Shown in pieces: positions 224-37,782 of a DNA stretch of 64,000 bases. The position numbers and the translations under genes were made by a program. The DNA comes from Ignavibacteriota bacterium (GTDB taxonomy: Bacteria > Bacteroidota > Ignavibacteria > UBA10030 > SZUA-254), in the NCBI GenBank assembly GCA_016212665.1, contig JACREZ010000002.1:79509-143508 (forward strand), in the 5' to 3' direction. The notes under the pieces were generated by a model. That model was given only the letters and a program-made list of their open reading frames with translations, did no database searches and was not told the origin of the DNA. How positions within the stretch are numbered: the first letter of the stretch is position 1; each line of letters starts with the position of its first letter.

Positions 224-297
224 TCGATTTCAGTTTCCAGTTTTCTGTTTTCAGTTTTCAGTTATTATATCATTTTGCATTTTTAATTTTGCATTCA
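224..297. repeat. AT-rich quasi-repeat spacer between sufB and sufC
   Basis: The spacer is built from near-copies of short words: CAGTTTTCTGTTTTCAGTT repeats followed by TTTTGCATTTTTAATTTTGC. No ORF or stem typical of a terminator is seen. Similar word-repetitive spacers occur elsewhere in this window (6721-6894, 36225-36310, 47440-47527). Confidence 0.5.
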
Positions 298-27295: not shown

Positions 27296-30058
27296 GTGAA
27301 ACAGCCAATTCTCCGATTTGCATTATCATCAATATTTCTTTTGTTCTTCACCTCATTTCTGTATTCTCAAACTTACCTCTCCAATTATACTCGATACACA
27401 GTCAACAATAATACGGTTCAGGTTTTTGCCGGTTCTGCGTCAGTAAAATTCTTTTCGATTAAAAGTTACATCCTTCGTGTAGAATATCTTCCGGATTCAA
27501 CTTCTCAATCCGACTCTTCCTTTGTAGTAATAAAAAGTACAGTCGGAATTGTGCCGACAATTACAGAAACTGATTCGTTGCTTACTATTGACCTTGCCGA
27601 AATAATAATACAGTGCAAGAAATATCCCTTACGGTTTTCTTTTTATAATTCAATGAATAAACTCCTCCTCTCTGAACCTGCTTCTGGCGGACTATCAAGG
27701 CAAGGAGAGAAGCGAATTGCCGGTTTTAATCTTACAACCAATGACCATTTCTATGGAACCGGTGAACGAGGAACGCAACTCGATAAACGGGGACTTTCGT
27801 TCGAGTCATACAATGTTGCAATCGGCGGTTATCAAAACGCCTTGCCAAACATGAACGCGAACATTCCGTTTCTTGCAACATCAAACGGCTATGCTTTATA
27901 TTTTGATAATACGTATCGCGGGCATTACGATTTAGGAAAAACAAATTCCTCAATCTTTACATACACAGCTGACGGAGGCGAACTAACTTATTATCTCATC
28001 GCAAAAGAAACTGTTTCTAGACAACTTGACAAATTTACTTGGCTCACCGGTAATCAGCCGCTTCCTCCGAAATGGGCGCTTGGTTTTATTCAATCCAAAT
28101 ATGGTTACAGAAATGAAACGGAAGCCCGTTCGATGATTCAAACAATGAGAGATAAACAGATCCCATGCGATGCAATCATTCTAGATTTGTATTGGTTCCA
28201 ACACATGGGCGATATCAGTTGGAAATCTTCAGCGTTTCCCAACCCATTTCAAATGATGTCTGATTTTCTTGGGCAAGGAATAAAAACGATTGTCATTACC
28301 GAGCCGTACATTATTGAGCCTTCATCAAACTACAGCGCGGCGGCAAGCAATGGGTATCTCGGAAAATTCTCTCAAAATGGTTCACCGTTTGTCCTTGCAA
28401 ATTGGTGGTCGTGTAATTGCAACGCGTACTTGCTTGATTTAACAAACCCTGCCGCACAACAATGGTGGTGGAACAAGCACCCGGCATTTTTCGGAAATGA
28501 ACTTGCCGGAATTTGGACTGACCTCTGCGAACCGGAACGTCATCCCGATTCGATGTATCATTACTTGGGAAAAACTCCGAAGGTTCACAATATCATGAAT
28601 CTTCTCTGGGCGAAAACTCTGTACGAAGGATTCAATTCATTCAGACCGAACCAGCGCTTCTTCAATCTCACTCGTTCGGGATTTGCAGGTATTCAACGCT
28701 ACGGCGTTTCGATTTGGTCTGGTGATGTTTCCCGGACATTCGGCGGACTTGCCGTTCAACTTCCGATGATGTTGAATATGGGAATGTCAGGAATCGTGTA
28801 TCATAATTCCGACATCGGTGGATTTTGTTGCGGCACAACCACGCCCGAATTGTACGTACGATGGATGCAGTACGGAACATTTTGTCCCATCACCCGCGCA
28901 CATGGAGTTGACCAACCGACCGAGCCGTGGGGCTACGGAAGCGAAGCAGAAGCAATCAGTAAAAAGTATATCGAACTCCGGTATCAACTTCTTCCCTATA
29001 TCTATACGCTTGCAGAACTCAATAGCAAAACCGGTTATCCTTTAGCCTATCCATTATTTTTTGATGACATGACAGATGCAAATCTGACAAATGAAAGTTC
29101 TTCGTATATGTGGGGAAGTTCGATGCTGGTTTCTCCTGTGGTTCAAGCAGGTCAAACATCAAAAAATATTTATCTCCCCAAGGGAGGTTGGATTGATTTC
29201 TGGACGGATAATTTTTATTTCGGCAAACAAACAATCACGATTCAAACGCCTCTCGAAACGATGCCGATATTTGTGAAAGCAGGAAGCATCATTCCGATGC
29301 AATTCCCGATGAACTACACCGATGAACGTCCGCTCGATACGCTTCGACTTGCAGTCTATCCACATCCAACAACCGATTTTCAATTTACCAATTCCATGTA
29401 TGAAGACGATGGAAAGACATTAGAATATCAGGATGGAAGTTTTGCAAAGACAGAATTCTCTCAGGAACTCACCACATCCGGCTCGGATACAATTCTCACT
29501 CTCACAATCAATCCGACGAAAGGAACATACACAGGAAAACCGACACATCGTGTTTATTTATCTGAAATTCATTTGATGAAGAAACATCCGGTTGATATAA
29601 CAATGAACGGGACAACTGTCAATGAAAAATACTCATACGTTGCACTGCGACAAGGAAACGATGGATATTATTACGATACACTCAAGAATATTCTTTACAT
29701 TCAAACGCCGACAAATCCCGATAGCAGTTATGAGTTGAAAATTGAAAACGTCCGCTTAACCGGAGTTCTTGATTGGGATGCATCGGAGAAATCGTACGGT
29801 TTTCGATTAGAGCAGAATTATCCTAATCCATTTAATCCTTCGACAGTTATTCGTTATCAGTTATCCGTTAATAGTTTCGTGACCTTAAAAGTGTATGATA
29901 TTGTAGGTAATGAAATTTCTATACTTGTTAATGAAAAAAAACAGCCGGGCGAATATCAAATAACATGGGATGCCTCAACACAGCCAAGCGGAATTTACTT
30001 CTGCAAGATGCAAACCGACAACTATCTTCAAACACAGAAATTAGTCGTTATCAAATAA
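27296..30058 (+). CDS. Secreted GH31 alpha-glucosidase-like enzyme with T9SS sorting domain
   Basis: 920 aa. Signal peptide (IFLLFFTSFLYSQ), GH31 N-terminal beta domain, then the (β/α)8 barrel with the nucleophile Asp409 in GIWTDLCEP and acid/base Asp477 in IWSGDVSRTFGG, plus HNSDIGGF and RWMQYGTFCPITRAHG. The C-terminal ~85 residues carry the T9SS/Por signature NYPNPFNPSTVIRYQL, GEYQITWDAS and a final KLVVIK. It therefore passes the outer membrane through T9SS and acts outside the cell on alpha-linked glucans or oligosaccharides. The start codon is GTG; a consensus promoter lies upstream. Confidence 0.93.
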   Translation: MKQPILRFALSSIFLLFFTSFLYSQTYLSNYTRYTVNNNTVQVFAGSASVKFFSIKSYILRVEYLPDSTSQSDSSFVVIKSTVGIVPTITETDSLLTIDLAEIIIQCKKYPLRFSFYNSMNKLLLSEPASGGLSRQGEKRIAGFNLTTNDHFYGTGERGTQLDKRGLSFESYNVAIGGYQNALPNMNANIPFLATSNGYALYFDNTYRGHYDLGKTNSSIFTYTADGGELTYYLIAKETVSRQLDKFTWLTGNQPLPPKWALGFIQSKYGYRNETEARSMIQTMRDKQIPCDAIILDLYWFQHMGDISWKSSAFPNPFQMMSDFLGQGIKTIVITEPYIIEPSSNYSAAASNGYLGKFSQNGSPFVLANWWSCNCNAYLLDLTNPAAQQWWWNKHPAFFGNELAGIWTDLCEPERHPDSMYHYLGKTPKVHNIMNLLWAKTLYEGFNSFRPNQRFFNLTRSGFAGIQRYGVSIWSGDVSRTFGGLAVQLPMMLNMGMSGIVYHNSDIGGFCCGTTTPELYVRWMQYGTFCPITRAHGVDQPTEPWGYGSEAEAISKKYIELRYQLLPYIYTLAELNSKTGYPLAYPLFFDDMTDANLTNESSSYMWGSSMLVSPVVQAGQTSKNIYLPKGGWIDFWTDNFYFGKQTITIQTPLETMPIFVKAGSIIPMQFPMNYTDERPLDTLRLAVYPHPTTDFQFTNSMYEDDGKTLEYQDGSFAKTEFSQELTTSGSDTILTLTINPTKGTYTGKPTHRVYLSEIHLMKKHPVDITMNGTTVNEKYSYVALRQGNDGYYYDTLKNILYIQTPTNPDSSYELKIENVRLTGVLDWDASEKSYGFRLEQNYPNPFNPSTVIRYQLSVNSFVTLKVYDIVGNEISILVNEKKQPGEYQITWDASTQPSGIYFCKMQTDNYLQTQKLVVIK

Positions 30059-31043: not shown

Positions 31044-31487
31044 TCATTTTGTCCCCTTATTTGTCTCCTTAAATCCAAATCTCTTCCTGAACTCATCATC
31101 TTCTTCTGCATAAGTTTTAGTTCGATGATGTTCTTCCTGATTCAAAATGTAATCCCTTACCTTCTGCGCCATTGACTCACTTACCGAAACTGCAAAATAT
31201 TCATCCTGCCATTCAAAATATCCAGTTGAGAGATTATTCTCATTCACCCAGTGTGAGGATTCGCCTTTCAATAACATAGCTATTTTGGATAATGTTTGAT
31301 CATGTTTCAAAACAAAAAGGGCATGAACATGGTCAACATAACCGCCAATCGTATCAAGAATAATCCCTTTATCATTTGCATTGGCGCGGATGTGGTCAAA
31401 AACCTTTTCCCGAAGTTCCTTGGTGAGAATTGGCTCTCGTTTTTTTGTTGACCATACCATATGAATTAATACTTTTGTAAAAGGCAT
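31044..31487 (-). mobile_element. REP-associated tyrosine transposase (RAYT, IS200-like)
   Basis: 147-aa Y1 transposase. VDHVHALFVL carries the HUH metal/nucleophile-assisting motif, HMVWSTKKREPIL is the conserved first strand, and the catalytic Tyr is in VRDYILNQEEHH. In IS200/RAYT enzymes this domain cuts single-stranded DNA next to hairpins. Identical 26-bp palindromes lie 28 bp beyond its 3' end and 60 bp beyond its 5' end, consistent with a RAYT acting on REP-like hairpins. The frame is intact, so it may be active. Confidence 0.88.
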
Positions 31488-31666: not shown

Positions 31667-34600
31667 CTATAGCAACTTTCCAGAAAGGACATTCATCTCT
31701 CTGATTATTTCTTCTAACTTTAATTGAATGGCTGGATTTGCAATAACATAGGGCTTCATTGCAAGGGTTTCCAAAGTATCAACTGCTTTCTGAGCAAGAG
31801 AAACCATAGTGCCAATATTCTGCAAGTTTGAGACGATCGCGCGTTTGGCTACTTGATGATAGACTTCTAAAAGAGATTCCAAATGATGTTTCGTCTTGTC
31901 AGTCAGCATATCGAAACAGACCTCAATTACTACTTTGAGTTTAATCGGGTCAAAGTTACATTCCTGATCAAGTTTCATCATGGCTGACGTAATAATGACA
32001 GTTCGATCAGGAAAGTCCAACTCAACAATATTTTCACCTCTTAATACTGATTGTATCTTAGATACAATATCTACATCTTGAGAATCATCTTCCCCATCAG
32101 GAGGACTGATGCTAAGCCACAGCCGAAAAAAATGTTTGGAAAACAACTCAACAAAGTATTGCGCATCTATCCAGTTCTGCATAATGAGGTAGAAAGTTTC
32201 AAAGTTTCTCTTAACAAACTTACTCAAATCTCGAATCTCAACAGTCAAGATGAAATCAAAATAGATCCGATTGTGTATAATCACATACAAGTAATTGATA
32301 ACAATCGCAAGTCGATGACTCTTGAACAACCAATTTGCTGCTTTGCCTTGATAATCCGATTGTAAGTGTTGATTTTGACCATAAAGCCAACCTAGTACGG
32401 ACATAATAAATGCACATAATTTAGATTTGGATGGCTCACTCAGTTCATCACAACGAGCAAGAAAGTAAAGAAGAGAATCTTCCGCTCGAGTGAAAGATAT
32501 CTGATTATCGTATTTTTCAATAATTGAGTTCACCACAGGTATTACCTCAAGCGTGAGAATTGTATCAAAAAAATTCTTGTCTCGAAGGGAAGTCGGTAGT
32601 TCAACATCATTAATTTCATTAAGAAGACGGAATTGGTTTACGATACATCGAAAAGCACTTTTCAAATCTCGAAGGCTTTTGAGATAAGGATGAAACTTCA
32701 TCAGCGTGCCTACGGCCAAAATCTTATCGTTGCTTTTGGTAAGAGAAAACATCGACACTTGTTCAAAGATCGAGATACCCTTATCTGGCAAACCAACATG
32801 TGCAAGAGTTGTTGCCAAGAGTAATTTGACTTTTATAATTGATAACTCAGGACTTCGATAATCCAGTGTCTTGTTATACATGCCAAAGTATGGTTTTACC
32901 CATGGCTCATTTGACTTTGTCCCATCAGGATTGACTAGTTTACCATCCCAATTACCATCCAGCGTAAATGTTAGCCAGCCAAGAGAATGAGATATGATTT
33001 GCATGTATCCCGCAAGTTCAGGATTGTTCAACATGCTGACCATAATTGAAAAGCATTTTGCTGAGTTATAATATTCGTTGATATGGATATAGAAGGTTGA
33101 CATATCTCCAAGAGTTTCCAAACTATTCTGCTCACGACGGGTACCTAAGTTTCGGGCCATTGACAGTGCCTTAAAAAAATTCTTTTTGGCATCCATATTC
33201 AGGCCTAGTTCGGATTGGGAGATTGCTGCCCTTCGATATGTATGTAGTAATAGAAAATCCTTGATATTTGAGGTTTCAAAAATTTTGATGCTCTCTTCAT
33301 ATTTCATCAAAGCACTTTTATAATCCTTTGATTTGTAATAACAATCTGCCATGCCTACTATGATTTCTGCAAGAATCTTGTTATCAGAAAGGTCACTAGA
33401 TACGTGGGTATTCTTTGCTCGATCAAAATGTTGAAGCGTTCGATGACAGTCATTTGAGAGGTCATTTAGAAGACATCCTATTAGATAGCTAATATCTCTT
33501 GTTGCTGATAAGTGTGCATTGACTTCGAACAGATTTCTTAGTTCCTCCAAGTCAGAGATTGCTTCCTCCAAAGTAGTTACCCTCGATGGGTCAATGCTCA
33601 AATTACGATATAGCTTGGTAAATAATATTTGGAAAAAATCTGATAGTTCCTTCTTTCTAAAAACTCGCGAAAGTTCTATCTTTGCCGCCGAATACGCCTT
33701 CACGAGGAGCACTAACAAATCGATTCTCGGTTTTTCCTGTCTGGCGATGAAATAAAACGGGACGCTCAAAACTTGATTCATGAATTTGGGGTCGGTTAGT
33801 TCCTTTGGTAATCGCTCCTGAGTAATGATTTGAACCATCTTGATGGCGCAATTTATCGACTGTTCAGATCTCTCTGGATCATGGGAATAGTGGTAAATGA
33901 GATAGATATGGCGAAAAAGACGATTTACTGGATCAAGAGAAGAGGTAGGCATCGCGAGAACTTTTGCCAATATCCGGTCCTGATTTTTGACATCCTTAAG
34001 TTGGTGATAAGTCTTAAGTGCCAAAATCAAGATGAGTAAATATTGATTGTTATATTTTGGCTCAAGGTCAAGGTTAAAAAAAATATTAAGCTCATTGATA
34101 ACATATCGTATTGTGGTAATATCTTTATCCTCAAGAATAATTCGACTCAATAGAAGTCCACATCTTCTTAGAACTTCATCGATCTTGCCAGCCATGAGAA
34201 AATAAAAGCAGGACTGCGTAGCGTCTTTAAAATCGACAGTGCCTCGTCGCGGAGTAAACAGATAATCCGCAGCAGCCGAATGTATATTTCGTTTTTCATC
34301 ACTTGAAAGATTGTTTATCCCAACTCTTTGAAAGAGGGTTGGGACAGAGAATCTTGAATTTGGATACACATCAAGAAACTTGTTACTTATCAGCTGAAAA
34401 ATCATCCCAGCATCTGCGACCTTTGGATCAATGCTTGCCAAGTATTCTGCAAGCTCCCCTGAAAACTGACCAGTCAGAGCACAAAGACGGTTGAACATCC
34501 TCTTTCCATCGGTTGTTTGAAGGTGAACATTGTAAATTCGATTCGCGATAGCTTCTGTGATCGCCTCCGAACCTCCCACATTCTTCCATCCAGCAATCAC

Positions 34601-35833
34601 CTTTTCAACCAAGACTGCCACTGTATGCCTTGTACTTGCGGCCGAATTTATTTCTGTAATTAATCCATTGATAAAATCGGGATGCCCAGATGTCCCCACT
34701 CTAATCAAAGTCAACAAGTTCTCATTAACACCTTCGACATTACAACCACTAGCTTTCATCAACTCCATGATCTCCTCTTCGTCGAACCCATTTAGTTCCA
34801 TGACATTGCTATGTAATGCAAGAGTTGCAGAGGGGTTCAGGGTATCCCGATCTTCCGAGATTAATATCACCTTGATTGAACCATTGGATTCTTTCAGAAG
34901 GATCTCGAGAAAAGCGAAAAGTCCGTTGAATACTGAGACAGATTGGATGTTATCTAATACGATCAACTGGAAAGTTGAACCATGAATTTGCTCTGTGCAA
35001 AGAGTAACTAATTTGTTAAGACTCAGTTCTCGGCTTATCCATTTCTCTTTAACATTGGCATTAGGGATAACCGAGTCAAGAAAATGTACGAGGTCGTTAA
35101 AGATAAAATTATCACCCACACCCTGATTCACTTTGAAATCGTACCAATAGTAGTTTGCGATGTTGAAGTCACTTACATACTGGCTTACAAGAAAAGTTTT
35201 GGTACTTCTGGTAACTCCATGAATAAACAGAAGTGGCTTCTGACTTAGCATTCCATTAATAATATTGGTCTTATGTTTCCTTTCAATAAAGTCGTTAGGT
35301 ACCTTTGGAGCTTTTTGAGCAATGTATTCAAGGTTGATACTTTCAGTGACTTGAGCACTCCTGGAAAGAATTGATTTTACCCCGTCATCGATTTGTTTGA
35401 GAAGGGAGAACTGCTCCAACTCAGAGGGAGTTCTGCTTTGGCGCACCATGCGAACAAAAATCGCGGAGAATTGTTCAAGCTCTTTCTCAACATCGACATT
35501 CACGTTCTTTAGCTCATGTACCTGTGTATTTGTGTGAAGGAAATGGTCCAGAGCGATAAGTGTTTTGCCAGTATCTCCATCGTACAATTCTTGTCTATAC
35601 GCGGTCTGTACATCTTCAAAGGCAAAGAGTTTAAGGATATCGGCATGTTTATTTTCAGCGAAACGAACTAGGGCACTCACATAAACTGATTGGAAATCAG
35701 GTTTAAGCGTGGGGATATCAAGACCCAACTCCCTTATGATTAGCTGGTATCTCACATTCGATTCTAGTTTCTCTTTGGAGTACTTCCCAAGGAGAGAAAG
35801 TGCCTTCACCAATATAGTTTCAACGACTGGCAT
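31667..35833 (-). CDS. STAND-like ATPase with TPR-type helical repeats, degenerate P-loop
   Basis: 1388 aa from the ATG at 35833 (TTG codons at 35851 and 35848 are alternative starts). Order: helical N-terminal region (~1-165) with VDVEKELEQFSAIFVRMVRQ, a linker VPNDFIERK, an NTPase core with PLLFIHGVTRSTKT (residues ~201-213), and LIVLDN as Walker B (~290-295), then a winged-helix-like stretch, and from ~550 on a long alpha-helical array with TPR-like units (ILAEIIVGMADCYYKSKDY, SALMKYEESIKIFE). The overall plan is STAND/NACHT, as in signalling and anti-phage sensors. The P-loop reads GVTRSTKT, with Thr where Gly normally precedes Lys. No effector domain was recognised. The small gene 35867-36172 lies 33 bp upstream. 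Confidence 0.75.
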   Translation of the reverse strand: MPVVETILVKALSLLGKYSKEKLESNVRYQLIIRELGLDIPTLKPDFQSVYVSALVRFAENKHADILKLFAFEDVQTAYRQELYDGDTGKTLIALDHFLHTNTQVHELKNVNVDVEKELEQFSAIFVRMVRQSRTPSELEQFSLLKQIDDGVKSILSRSAQVTESINLEYIAQKAPKVPNDFIERKHKTNIINGMLSQKPLLFIHGVTRSTKTFLVSQYVSDFNIANYYWYDFKVNQGVGDNFIFNDLVHFLDSVIPNANVKEKWISRELSLNKLVTLCTEQIHGSTFQLIVLDNIQSVSVFNGLFAFLEILLKESNGSIKVILISEDRDTLNPSATLALHSNVMELNGFDEEEIMELMKASGCNVEGVNENLLTLIRVGTSGHPDFINGLITEINSAASTRHTVAVLVEKVIAGWKNVGGSEAITEAIANRIYNVHLQTTDGKRMFNRLCALTGQFSGELAEYLASIDPKVADAGMIFQLISNKFLDVYPNSRFSVPTLFQRVGINNLSSDEKRNIHSAAADYLFTPRRGTVDFKDATQSCFYFLMAGKIDEVLRRCGLLLSRIILEDKDITTIRYVINELNIFFNLDLEPKYNNQYLLILILALKTYHQLKDVKNQDRILAKVLAMPTSSLDPVNRLFRHIYLIYHYSHDPERSEQSINCAIKMVQIITQERLPKELTDPKFMNQVLSVPFYFIARQEKPRIDLLVLLVKAYSAAKIELSRVFRKKELSDFFQILFTKLYRNLSIDPSRVTTLEEAISDLEELRNLFEVNAHLSATRDISYLIGCLLNDLSNDCHRTLQHFDRAKNTHVSSDLSDNKILAEIIVGMADCYYKSKDYKSALMKYEESIKIFETSNIKDFLLLHTYRRAAISQSELGLNMDAKKNFFKALSMARNLGTRREQNSLETLGDMSTFYIHINEYYNSAKCFSIMVSMLNNPELAGYMQIISHSLGWLTFTLDGNWDGKLVNPDGTKSNEPWVKPYFGMYNKTLDYRSPELSIIKVKLLLATTLAHVGLPDKGISIFEQVSMFSLTKSNDKILAVGTLMKFHPYLKSLRDLKSAFRCIVNQFRLLNEINDVELPTSLRDKNFFDTILTLEVIPVVNSIIEKYDNQISFTRAEDSLLYFLARCDELSEPSKSKLCAFIMSVLGWLYGQNQHLQSDYQGKAANWLFKSHRLAIVINYLYVIIHNRIYFDFILTVEIRDLSKFVKRNFETFYLIMQNWIDAQYFVELFSKHFFRLWLSISPPDGEDDSQDVDIVSKIQSVLRGENIVELDFPDRTVIITSAMMKLDQECNFDPIKLKVVIEVCFDMLTDKTKHHLESLLEVYHQVAKRAIVSNLQNIGTMVSLAQKAVDTLETLAMKPYVIANPAIQLKLEEIIREMNVLSGKLL

Positions 35834-35866
35834 CTTAGCAGTCCCCAACAATTTGCCTTATTCGTC

Positions 35867-36172
35867 TCACTCTTCCAACCCCTTCGTCAACTCCTCAATC
35901 TCACTCTCATAGGCAAGTTCAAGTTTCTTTCGTTGTAAAAATACACTCTGCACAACACTGAGAAAACGGGATTGGTCTGCATTGTAATTATACTCAAGTA
36001 TAAATGCATCAAACGCTTTCAGTGTAAATGTTTCGTATGTCGGCAGTGTTTCTAAGTGTAATACAGGTTTTAGGAAGTCAACAAGGCTCACGACACACAA
36101 ACAGAATGTTTTCAACATCCGGTCAATGAGACTATATCGTGTCTCCTGTTCGCTTATTTTTGATGCACTCAC
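35867..36172 (-). CDS. Small helical protein paired with the STAND-like gene
   Basis: 101 aa, not recognised. It is predicted mainly alpha-helical with a somewhat hydrophobic middle (LKTFCLCVVSLVDFLKPVLHL) and an acidic, coiled-coil-like C-terminal end (RKKLELAYESEIEELTKGLEE). The start is a GTG at 36172. The stop lies 33 bp before the STAND-like ATG, so the two are probably one transcript. It may be an adaptor, effector or inhibitor of the large ATPase; that is inference from position only. Confidence 0.68.
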   Translation of the reverse strand: MSASKISEQETRYSLIDRMLKTFCLCVVSLVDFLKPVLHLETLPTYETFTLKAFDAFILEYNYNADQSRFLSVVQSVFLQRKKLELAYESEIEELTKGLEE

Positions 36173-36540
36173 AATTAGCTTCTATTTCGCGGCAGGTATA
36201 TACGAATTTTCTTTGGGAATTTCAATCCTCAGTTGGTGAGTGGTGAATAAAGAAAGTTTATGCTCTCCACACCTACAGCCTACTACCCACTAACAACTAA
36301 CAAAATAATTTCAATTTTGCTCGCATTTTTAACAACCGAAAAGTATATCCGTGATTTTGTAATCCGCTATTCATGAAGGGGTCAGGAAGTTGATTTCGGA
36401 ATGACGGGGCGTGGGTTTAGGGAAATCAATTCAGGAGTTTTACACACGGCAATAATATGTTCCATTTGCTTAAAATAGCCTATATTTCGGCATTTTCAGC
36501 TTCCCTCTAATCTTTCGGGGATTCCCCGAAATGTTGGAGG
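36173..36540. other. Spacer without gene upstream of the STAND pair
   Basis: No convincing ORF or consensus promoter is seen. 36225-36310 contains word-like sequence in two loosely complementary halves: GTTGGTGAGTGGTGAATAA on the left and TACTACCCACTAACAACTAA on the right. This resembles the other quasi-repeat spacers of the window. From 36541 the 21-bp minisatellite begins. Confidence 0.4.
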
Positions 36541-36862
36541 GAATTTCCGAAACGAAATGCAAAGCCCACCAAACGGTGTGCAGAGTTCCGGAAAGCGTGT
36601 GCAGTCCCCTCCAAACAAAATGCAACTCCCGAAAAATGAAGTGCGAGTCCCCCGGAACAAAATGCAATTCCCGATACATCTTGTGCCTTCGCCGCCGAAC
36701 AATATGCGACTCCCCAAAAACCGAGTGCGACTCCCTCGGAATAAAATGCAATTCCCGATACATCGTGTGCCATCGCCTCCAAACAATATGGGACCCCCGA
36801 AAAACGAAGTGCGTCTCCCACGGAACAAAATGCTATCGCCGATGCATCGTATTCCATCGCCT
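36541..36862. repeat. 21-bp minisatellite with 84-bp higher-order repeat
   Basis: About 15 consecutive 21-bp units can be aligned on TGC; typical ones begin TGCGACTCCC or TGCAATTCCC and end in A-rich CGGAACAAAA. Units recur every fourth position: TGCAATTCCCGATACATC appears twice exactly 84 bp apart, followed each time by TGCC(T/A)TCGCC. Because 21 is a multiple of three and stops are absent, several frames on both strands stay open through the array, producing overlapping repeat-only ORFs of ~100-160 codons (e.g. 36496-36857 minus, 36531-37019 plus). The array begins immediately after the DUF4340 stop codon. Confidence 0.85.
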
Positions 36863-36867
36863 ACGAA

Positions 36868-37782
36868 CTACTTCTTCTTCCCTTTCGCTGAGATCAAAAA
36901 CTTTTCAACCGACTTCAAAATATTTTGAACCGACCATTTACTCAACACAAAATATTGAGGTGATTTTGAAGTCTGAACATAATACTTTGCCGTGTCGGGA
37001 AGTTGCGGATAGAAATTAATGGCAACTTCTTCCATTGAAGTGACTTTCAAATGTATAGGCTCCGTTTCCGGCTTTGTAAGCGTATCGGCAAAATCTTCCG
37101 TCTTCAAATCTGAAAGCGTACTGAGCGTTGAATTCATCGTGGTTGTTTCGACTGAATCAGCGCCGATTTTCCATCCGGAAGAATCCTTCTCAACAACGTA
37201 TTGCTTTGTGCCTGTGATGAATTCAAGTCGCCTGATGGAATCTTTCATCGTTGCATAGATTGATTTATCTCTCCACTCACGAACTTCCTGGTTCAACGAC
37301 CATGGACTTAAACCGGAACCGAGATACACATCGTTCGAGTTTTCTTTCCGAAAGTAAATTTCTTCGTATGATGGTCCCATCTTTCCGACTATCATCGTCA
37401 CGGTTTTTCCCGAACGGTCAGTAACGGAAAGTTTTGTTCCTGCGCTATCAACCTGATACGTTTTTTGTCTATCCACATTTGAAGAAACCAAACTACCGAC
37501 TTTAAACTTTTGCATTCCACCGAGAATCGGGAATAAGTTCACCATGTTTGCCGGATATTTCAACGGTGAAGTAACGTACCACTTTCCCCCTTGATTTTCC
37601 AGCGTAACGGATTTCTCCGGTTTTGTAATTTCAATTTTTACAATTGAAGCAGAGTCGAGCGACATGCTGAATGTTGCTGTGTCGTAACTTGCTTCACGCT
37701 CTTCCGAAGGCATCAAATAAAAAACTGCCAACGCTCCGAGCAATACAAATACTGCAATCAATATTACTGTTGATTTATTCAT
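36868..37782 (-). CDS. DUF4340 protein of the gliding-type ABC operon
   Basis: 304 aa. One N-terminal membrane helix (VILIAVFVLLGALAVFYLM) is followed by a periplasmic domain of the DUF4340 type (GKWYVTSPLKYPAN, VTDRSGKTVTMIVGK, YEEIYFRK, WSLNQEVREWRDKSI). This family is regularly found after GldG-like proteins, as here, 16 bp downstream. The C-terminus ends in basic AKGKKK, and the minisatellite starts directly after the stop. Its role in the complex is unknown. Confidence 0.88.
   Translation of the reverse strand: MNKSTVILIAVFVLLGALAVFYLMPSEEREASYDTATFSMSLDSASIVKIEITKPEKSVTLENQGGKWYVTSPLKYPANMVNLFPILGGMQKFKVGSLVSSNVDRQKTYQVDSAGTKLSVTDRSGKTVTMIVGKMGPSYEEIYFRKENSNDVYLGSGLSPWSLNQEVREWRDKSIYATMKDSIRRLEFITGTKQYVVEKDSSGWKIGADSVETTTMNSTLSTLSDLKTEDFADTLTKPETEPIHLKVTSMEEVAINFYPQLPDTAKYYVQTSKSPQYFVLSKWSVQNILKSVEKFLISAKGKKK

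Follow-up and report, generated by a model that had tools for sequence, protein, structure and literature searches.

A 21-bp tandem array in an Ignavibacteriota genome: a non-coding satellite and probable orphan of a class of arrays linked to one gene family

In an Ignavibacteriota genome, a DUF4340 gene ends against an array of 21-bp repeats that is open in several reading frames on both strands. This raises the question of what such an array is, whether it is translated and why its period is 21 bp. The stretch of DNA analysed, referred to below as the window, is 64,000 nucleotides long. An earlier note placed the array at 36541-36862 and offered three explanations, namely a phase-variable read-through tail, a recombination hotspot and a non-coding RNA or structural element. 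The array is present at these positions, but its true extent is 36556-36870, preceded by two degenerate units at 36514-36555. The features of the locus are listed below, where C21 is another contig of the same genome and G001 is a congener.

31667-35851, minus strand: gene of a NACHT-type STAND NTPase (Pfam NNH5, E=2.8e-22), a neighbour
35867-36172, minus strand: ORF of 101 aa, possibly the remnant of a type I restriction subunit (EcoEI_R_C, 21.4 bits, below the Pfam cut-off of 24), a neighbour
36191-36824, plus strand: duplicated segment homologous to C21:22990-23586 (84% over 409 nt at 36417-36824, plus a 38-nt match)
36514-36555, plus strand: two degenerate edge units with a palindromic stretch, kept in the C21 copy and in G001
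36556-36870, plus strand (as in the gene-linked C21 copy): 21-bp array of 15 contiguous units with an 84-bp higher-order period
36868-37782, minus strand: DUF4340 gene (Pfam PF14238, E=3.3e-23) with its stop codon in the last array unit, a neighbour outside the module

The repeat structure is well above chance. TRF detected a period of 84 at 36596-36862 (score 352) and a period of 42 at 36605-36833. Self-identity within 36541-36862 was 0.50 at lag 21, 0.58 at lag 42 and 0.73 at lag 84, the highest value, in agreement with the earlier observation that every fourth unit is most alike. Off-period lags of 19, 20, 22 and 23 gave 0.28-0.32, and the highest values in 2,000 shuffles of the same stretch were 0.339 (lag 21) and 0.349 (lag 84). 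The description of about 15 units anchored on TGC also holds, this short signature standing in phase in 13 of the 15 units. Two exact 18-bp matches 84 bp apart had been reported as well; the longest exact repeat is instead a single 22-bp run at 36659-36680. The array does adjoin the DUF4340 stop, but the stop codon (36868-36870, minus strand) sits inside the last unit. A CRISPR array was rejected, the units being contiguous and without spacers. The possibility, raised earlier, of an assembly artefact is unlikely because the array has a second copy on a different contig and the congener carries a shorter relative.

The search for the same unit elsewhere in the genome (3.9 Mb, 45 contigs) returned one other match, C21:23264-23586, with 88% identity over 323 bp. 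This copy lies 272 bp upstream of the gene for a 208-aa protein with a predicted helical hairpin and fibronectin type III (FnIII) fold. The separate 38-nt match to C21, at 36191-36228, is found about 190 nt past the 409-nt homology, and a 17-nt motif inside it occurs only at the window and C21 sites with up to one mismatch allowed. A DNA search of 40 genomes, own included, gave matches only in the own genome and in G001, where the shorter relative, of about five units, is 68% identical to the C21 array over 168 nt. A model of the array edge recovered the known copies; beyond the genus its best E-value was 0.007. In G001, the DUF4340 orthologue (76% identical) carries no array, ends normally and has a different neighbour; thus, the array was gained here or lost in G001 after the species split. 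Protein and profile searches found no family gene in the window or in the rest of its contig, C2, so that the partner gene present at the C21 copy is missing here. The window array can therefore be regarded as an orphan, being a duplicate of a gene-linked array and itself without a family gene.

Three of the four arrays without a family gene in this genome resemble one particular gene-linked array: the window array and that of C21 (86% over 356 nt), the C4 array (C4:42936-43292, i.e. L074 8937-9293, 17 copies) and the end of C34, L133 (85% over 232 nt), and the C34:23627 array and that of C16 (75% over 84 nt). No gene-linked counterpart was seen for the remaining one, which lies at the end of contig C10. 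The 35-nt motif that ends the duplicated segment has a third occurrence with 86% identity, the sites listed being window 36190-36224 and C21:25978-26012; downstream of the third occurrence stands a gene which, from its sequence, we take to be a cysteine synthase gene. The proposal of a recombination hotspot may be compatible with the duplication of the segment and the fast turnover of the arrays.

The neighbours of the 21-bp arrays of this genome include similar proteins of 206-221 aa beside the C21, C24, C11 and C32 arrays. Searching 80 genomes with the C24 protein matched seven of them, with 11 matches in the own genome, and a divergent C11-type protein matched only the own genome among the same 80, three times. 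Family profiles found members in 6 of 395 genomes of the phylum, 22 of 390 of one class and 27 of 395 of another; these three sets partly overlap, and the copy numbers are lower bounds since only seven to eight candidates were scored in each genome. None of the family members scanned matched a Pfam or NCBIfam entry convincingly; the best E-values for the 23 members of the alignment, from which L127 was left out for an internal stop, were 0.007 and 5.5e-4. A sequence search of the PDB with the family profile gave weak matches at most (best E 0.049). The AlphaFold2 model of a family protein (mean pLDDT 86.9, pTM 0.47) has an N-terminal helical hairpin (residues 11-32 and 36-90) followed by a beta sandwich, and on this predicted model the C-terminal domain (about 112-208) is an FnIII fold. 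The best FnIII rows of the structure search had Z of 10-11 with 82-92 residues aligned and an rmsd of mostly 2.0-2.6 A. Family proteins are mostly acidic, with a median pI of 5.7 (n=20). PHROGs gave no match for five of them. A defence gene was rejected as a description of the family, three of its proteins being without a PADLOC match. As the family was searched by sequence, remote members were missed. L246 1135-1767 (G763:C1) encodes a 211-aa protein that matches Pfam fn3 but escaped the profile; a 21-bp array begins about 280 nt upstream of it, and the partner family may be wider than its profile-detected members.

The association between gene and array was measured with a statistic that combines matches at lags 21 and 42 in 84-nt windows, and an array was called when the statistic was more than 8 above the highest value among 11 control lags. 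In the first round, an array was present in the locus (up to about 3.6 kb) of 36 of the 40 family genes encoding 160 aa or more, upstream of the gene in 33 cases and downstream in three. The exceptions were L131 (borderline, with 2.9 copies of 21 by TRF), L143, whose locus holds no upstream sequence, and both genes of G329. This count left out the fragments below 160 aa (L130, L144 and L146) and L123, which had no tblastn hit. The threshold was chosen after the first loci had been seen; more independent are the period scan and 45 later loci, taken from different families and a second class and unused in forming the idea, 32 of which had an array. Two of these 32 are doubtful (L226, heptamer-like, and L190, 1.2 kb downstream), and L228, among the 13 below the threshold, shows an array by TRF.

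Control loci, made up of other genes or chance matches, had an array in two of 45 cases, L045 with its run of identical letters being left out. Since they include chance matches to the array edge, any bias favours arrays in the controls. Control pieces of the own genome were positive in 9 of 93 cases, including the window itself, the C32 array beside a family gene and four heptamer-related repeats, and random 3.6-kb pieces of four family-bearing genomes in 9 of 100. Fisher p-values for family loci against controls were 1.6e-20 and 6e-14, with the reservation that related family genes are not independent events. A scan of periods 10-40 gave 21 as the winner upstream of 70 of 82 family genes vs 24 of 199 control pieces; it used 82 of the 85 upstream regions, those shorter than 250 nt being left out. 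The link is strong but not exclusive, because strong 21-bp arrays also occur without a profile-detected family gene, as in six of the nine background positives, one of these being the array upstream of the fn3 protein of L246. In family-bearing genomes, strong arrays with no family gene found in the stretch were seen at L231 6332 and 9396, L234 822, L241 2105 and L245 12463. The genomes are mostly draft assemblies, in which arrays may be shortened or missing at contig ends. Contigs end inside 21-bp arrays at L067 (G021:C14), L037 (G021:C23) and L077 (G000:C10), which indicates that such arrays interrupt assemblies and that draft genomes probably under-count them. Taken jointly, the linkage of gene and array and the orphan status of the window array are held with high confidence.

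As to translation, stop codons are absent from four of the six frames in 36541-36862 and from two of the six across all 15 units. The array is thus open in several frames, as had been pointed out, but this is no evidence of coding because column permutation of the 21-mer left at least two frames open in 23% of trials. Over 36 related arrays, the variation between units is not codon-phased (p=1.0), and in several of these arrays every sense frame is interrupted by stops. Because of this missing codon phase, the 21-bp arrays are very probably non-coding, as far as sequence can tell. The suggestion of a phase-variable read-through tail on DUF4340 was rejected, since the gene stops right at the edge of the array, the orthologue in G001 ends normally, and the related arrays show no codon constraint.

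The sequence of the unit differs between arrays, while the period of 21 bp is constant. The genes of L126, L129 and L138 are 84-85% identical in DNA, and their arrays have little or no similarity. In the 97% pair L137 and L139 (own-genome contigs C23 and C16), the shared block consists of a terminator, the array, the promoter-proximal region, the gene and a second terminator; within it, the two copies differ in a stretch between array and gene, and from the two terminator-like hairpins outwards the flanks are no longer alike. It looks like this cassette was moved or exchanged as one block. Terminators were found to the left of the array in 4 of 36 loci (background 8%) and to the right of the family gene in 14 of 36 (background 5%); one of the three downstream arrays lies beyond a terminator. 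In the twelve loci listed, 4-97 nt separate the array from the start codon, and comparison by eye found no promoter or motif common to these intervals. Inverted-repeat structure exceeded that of column-permuted controls, with a mean z of -1.68 and -1.75 on the two strands; the excess (z below -1.64) was present in 18 of 36 arrays on one strand and 19 on the other and missing in about half. Being alike on both strands, this dyad excess is more readily explained by an element at the DNA level than by an RNA from one strand.

The surroundings of the window array offer further observations. An IS200-like Y1 transposase gene lies near it, at window 31044-31487 (Pfam Y1_Tnp, E=2.5e-24). An hsdM-like gene adjoins the C21 copy and a possible type I restriction relic the window array; this is no more than a hint that the window array is coupled to type I restriction genes, and 21-bp arrays may mark borders of defence genes. 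Heptamer-based repeats with a period of 7, 14 or 15, which can mimic a 21-bp period, recur in the genome (window 228-263 and 29843-29876; L071 3046-3125; L090 9865; L092 10321). No Rfam match was found within the window.

On balance, the reading that we consider rather probable is that the window array is a non-coding 21-bp satellite, an orphan of the gene-linked class, and that the array of an intact module is a phased cis element. Across two classes of one phylum, 21-bp arrays adjoin genes of the family of about 210 aa, nearly always upstream. Twenty-one base pairs correspond to two turns of B-DNA, so that a feature repeated at this period faces one side of the helix. A phased DNA platform is favoured because the period is fixed, the sequence is free, the position is mostly upstream and neither a coding nor a one-stranded RNA signature is seen. 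The mechanism itself is proposed tentatively. In an intact module, the array would act in cis as an upstream DNA element in which the two-turn phase matters and not the sequence, with a bound protein or a DNA shape recurring on one helix face. The phased array might in this way set the expression or the local architecture of the adjacent family gene. Units would be gained, lost and homogenised, so that the sequence is renewed and the phase persists. The element in the window, between the DUF4340 operon and the NACHT gene, would then be a leftover with a passive role at most. Three downstream arrays are unexpected for a simple promoter element, and the two G329 genes without an array, the 13 later loci below the threshold, the six strong background arrays without a detected family gene, the lack of a common motif between array and start codon and the arrays without a dyad excess also count against it. 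Among the three explanations offered at the outset, a non-coding RNA or structural element comes closest.

The alternative that survives best, possible but somewhat unlikely, is a hitch-hiking minisatellite. Gene and array would move as a mobile cassette, the array being a by-product of movement or slippage and the window copy a fragment. The L137/L139 pair, bounded by two terminator hairpins within unrelated flanks, would be expected from it, as would the orphan copies, the differing arrays of genes 84-85% identical and the IS200-like gene near the window array. BrickBuilt of Porphyromonas gingivalis, a minisatellite within a MITE, provides a parallel (PMC4596501). However, movement leaves a single fixed period across two classes unexplained, the segment ends viewed in alignments established neither inverted-repeat ends nor target duplications, and relatives were found on no phage, plasmid or viral contig. 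An element of phage or plasmid origin was rejected separately: the DNA had no match, viral contigs held no relative, and tblastn with one family protein against plasmids and another against phages gave no match.

Less likely again is a repeat RNA, a leader or separate small RNA transcribed from the array, with repeated hairpins that target translation or other RNAs. Some arrays may indeed be in the leader, because they end so shortly before the start codon in twelve loci, and half of the 36 are more structured than permuted controls. Transcription of 52-nt satellites is described in B. coagulans (PMC8161180; PMC8625621). The excess of structure is, however, equal on both strands and missing in half of the arrays; moreover, three arrays lie downstream, the unit sequence is not kept and the window has no Rfam match.

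It is still more doubtful that the family protein binds its own array like a Rep protein on iterons, assembling at two-turn spacing. Mostly one gene stands beside one array, and the period equals two helical turns. Subirana and Messeguer propose an unidentified protein that polymerises on such repeats (PMC8161180). Direct DNA binding is not favoured by a median pI of 5.7, the sole recognised fold, the predicted FnIII, is not a typical DNA binder, and close paralogues have arrays with no sequence in common. That the array encodes a heptapeptide-repeat tail or a small protein is very improbable: the two to four open frames of the window and a plus-strand frame 0 in which amino-acid changes between the two copies are slightly below expectation (P=0.029, uncorrected for six frames) stand against 36 arrays without codon phase, relatives with stops in all sense frames and the readiness with which chance alone opens frames in a 21-bp repeat.

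The preferred reading, an orphan satellite whose gene-linked relatives are phased cis elements, can be compared with several known systems. Heptamer direct repeats of the TAACTGA type are intergenic and also occur in this genome, but they recur every 7 bp and the window array does not (PMC4679880). The family protein resembles FnIII proteins in the C-terminal fold of its predicted model and differs from them by the additional N-terminal helical hairpin and, for the members scanned, in matching no Pfam or NCBIfam family convincingly. BrickBuilt of P. gingivalis is likewise an intergenic tandem array of the Bacteroidota with a leader, a tail and scattered copies, and promoter activity is reported for its segments (PMC4596501). 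Its unit, however, is of 23 nt and of one sequence family, it has inverted-repeat ends, and no partner gene is reported in the available text (PMC4596501); the arrays described here have a 21-nt unit whose sequence varies between arrays.

The closest system is that of the bacterial tandem repeats described by Subirana and Messeguer in 2021, in which the unit has a constant length of 20-21 or 52 nt and a sequence that varies (PMC8161180). In the available text, such satellites are generally non-coding, occur in many groups and have a function that is called an enigma, for which a protein or small RNAs are suggested (PMC8161180). The window array is a member of the 20-21-nt class. It has 15 units of 21 bp, where a length of 20-21 nt and at least four repeats define the class; arrays of equal period with different units occur in the same genome (window and C21, C4, C11, C24, C32, C10 and others); the codon-phase test on 36 related arrays points to non-coding DNA; and a short signature, TGC, marks the array. 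The sporadic distribution by species is also shared (PMC8161180). The earlier remark that such arrays are uncommon in bacterial chromosomes is correct for most species, but 20-21-nt satellites are already a published class (PMC8161180).

Two differences set the present arrays apart from this class as published. The satellites are described there from Bacillus, with Cyanobacteria and Actinobacteria named (PMC8161180), and here they come from metagenome-assembled genomes of Ignavibacteria and other Bacteroidota. Furthermore, a gene family is the neighbour here, and the available text reports no linked gene there (PMC8161180). A 2019 survey by the same authors makes no mention of a gene link in its available part (PMC6749651), and no report of a gene linked to 21-bp arrays appeared in the titles and abstracts of the open literature, subscription papers lying outside this scope. 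We put forward with reserve that the array and the helical-hairpin/FnIII gene could be halves of one undescribed module, widespread in Bacteroidota, which joins a sequence-indifferent phased platform to a dedicated gene. If so, the 20-21-nt bacterial satellites would be its footprint, and the copy in the window one whose gene has been lost. The partner gene beside most arrays tested makes the question of why 21 experimentally approachable via one neighbour gene, and the link allows new arrays to be found by the gene and new genes by the arrays.
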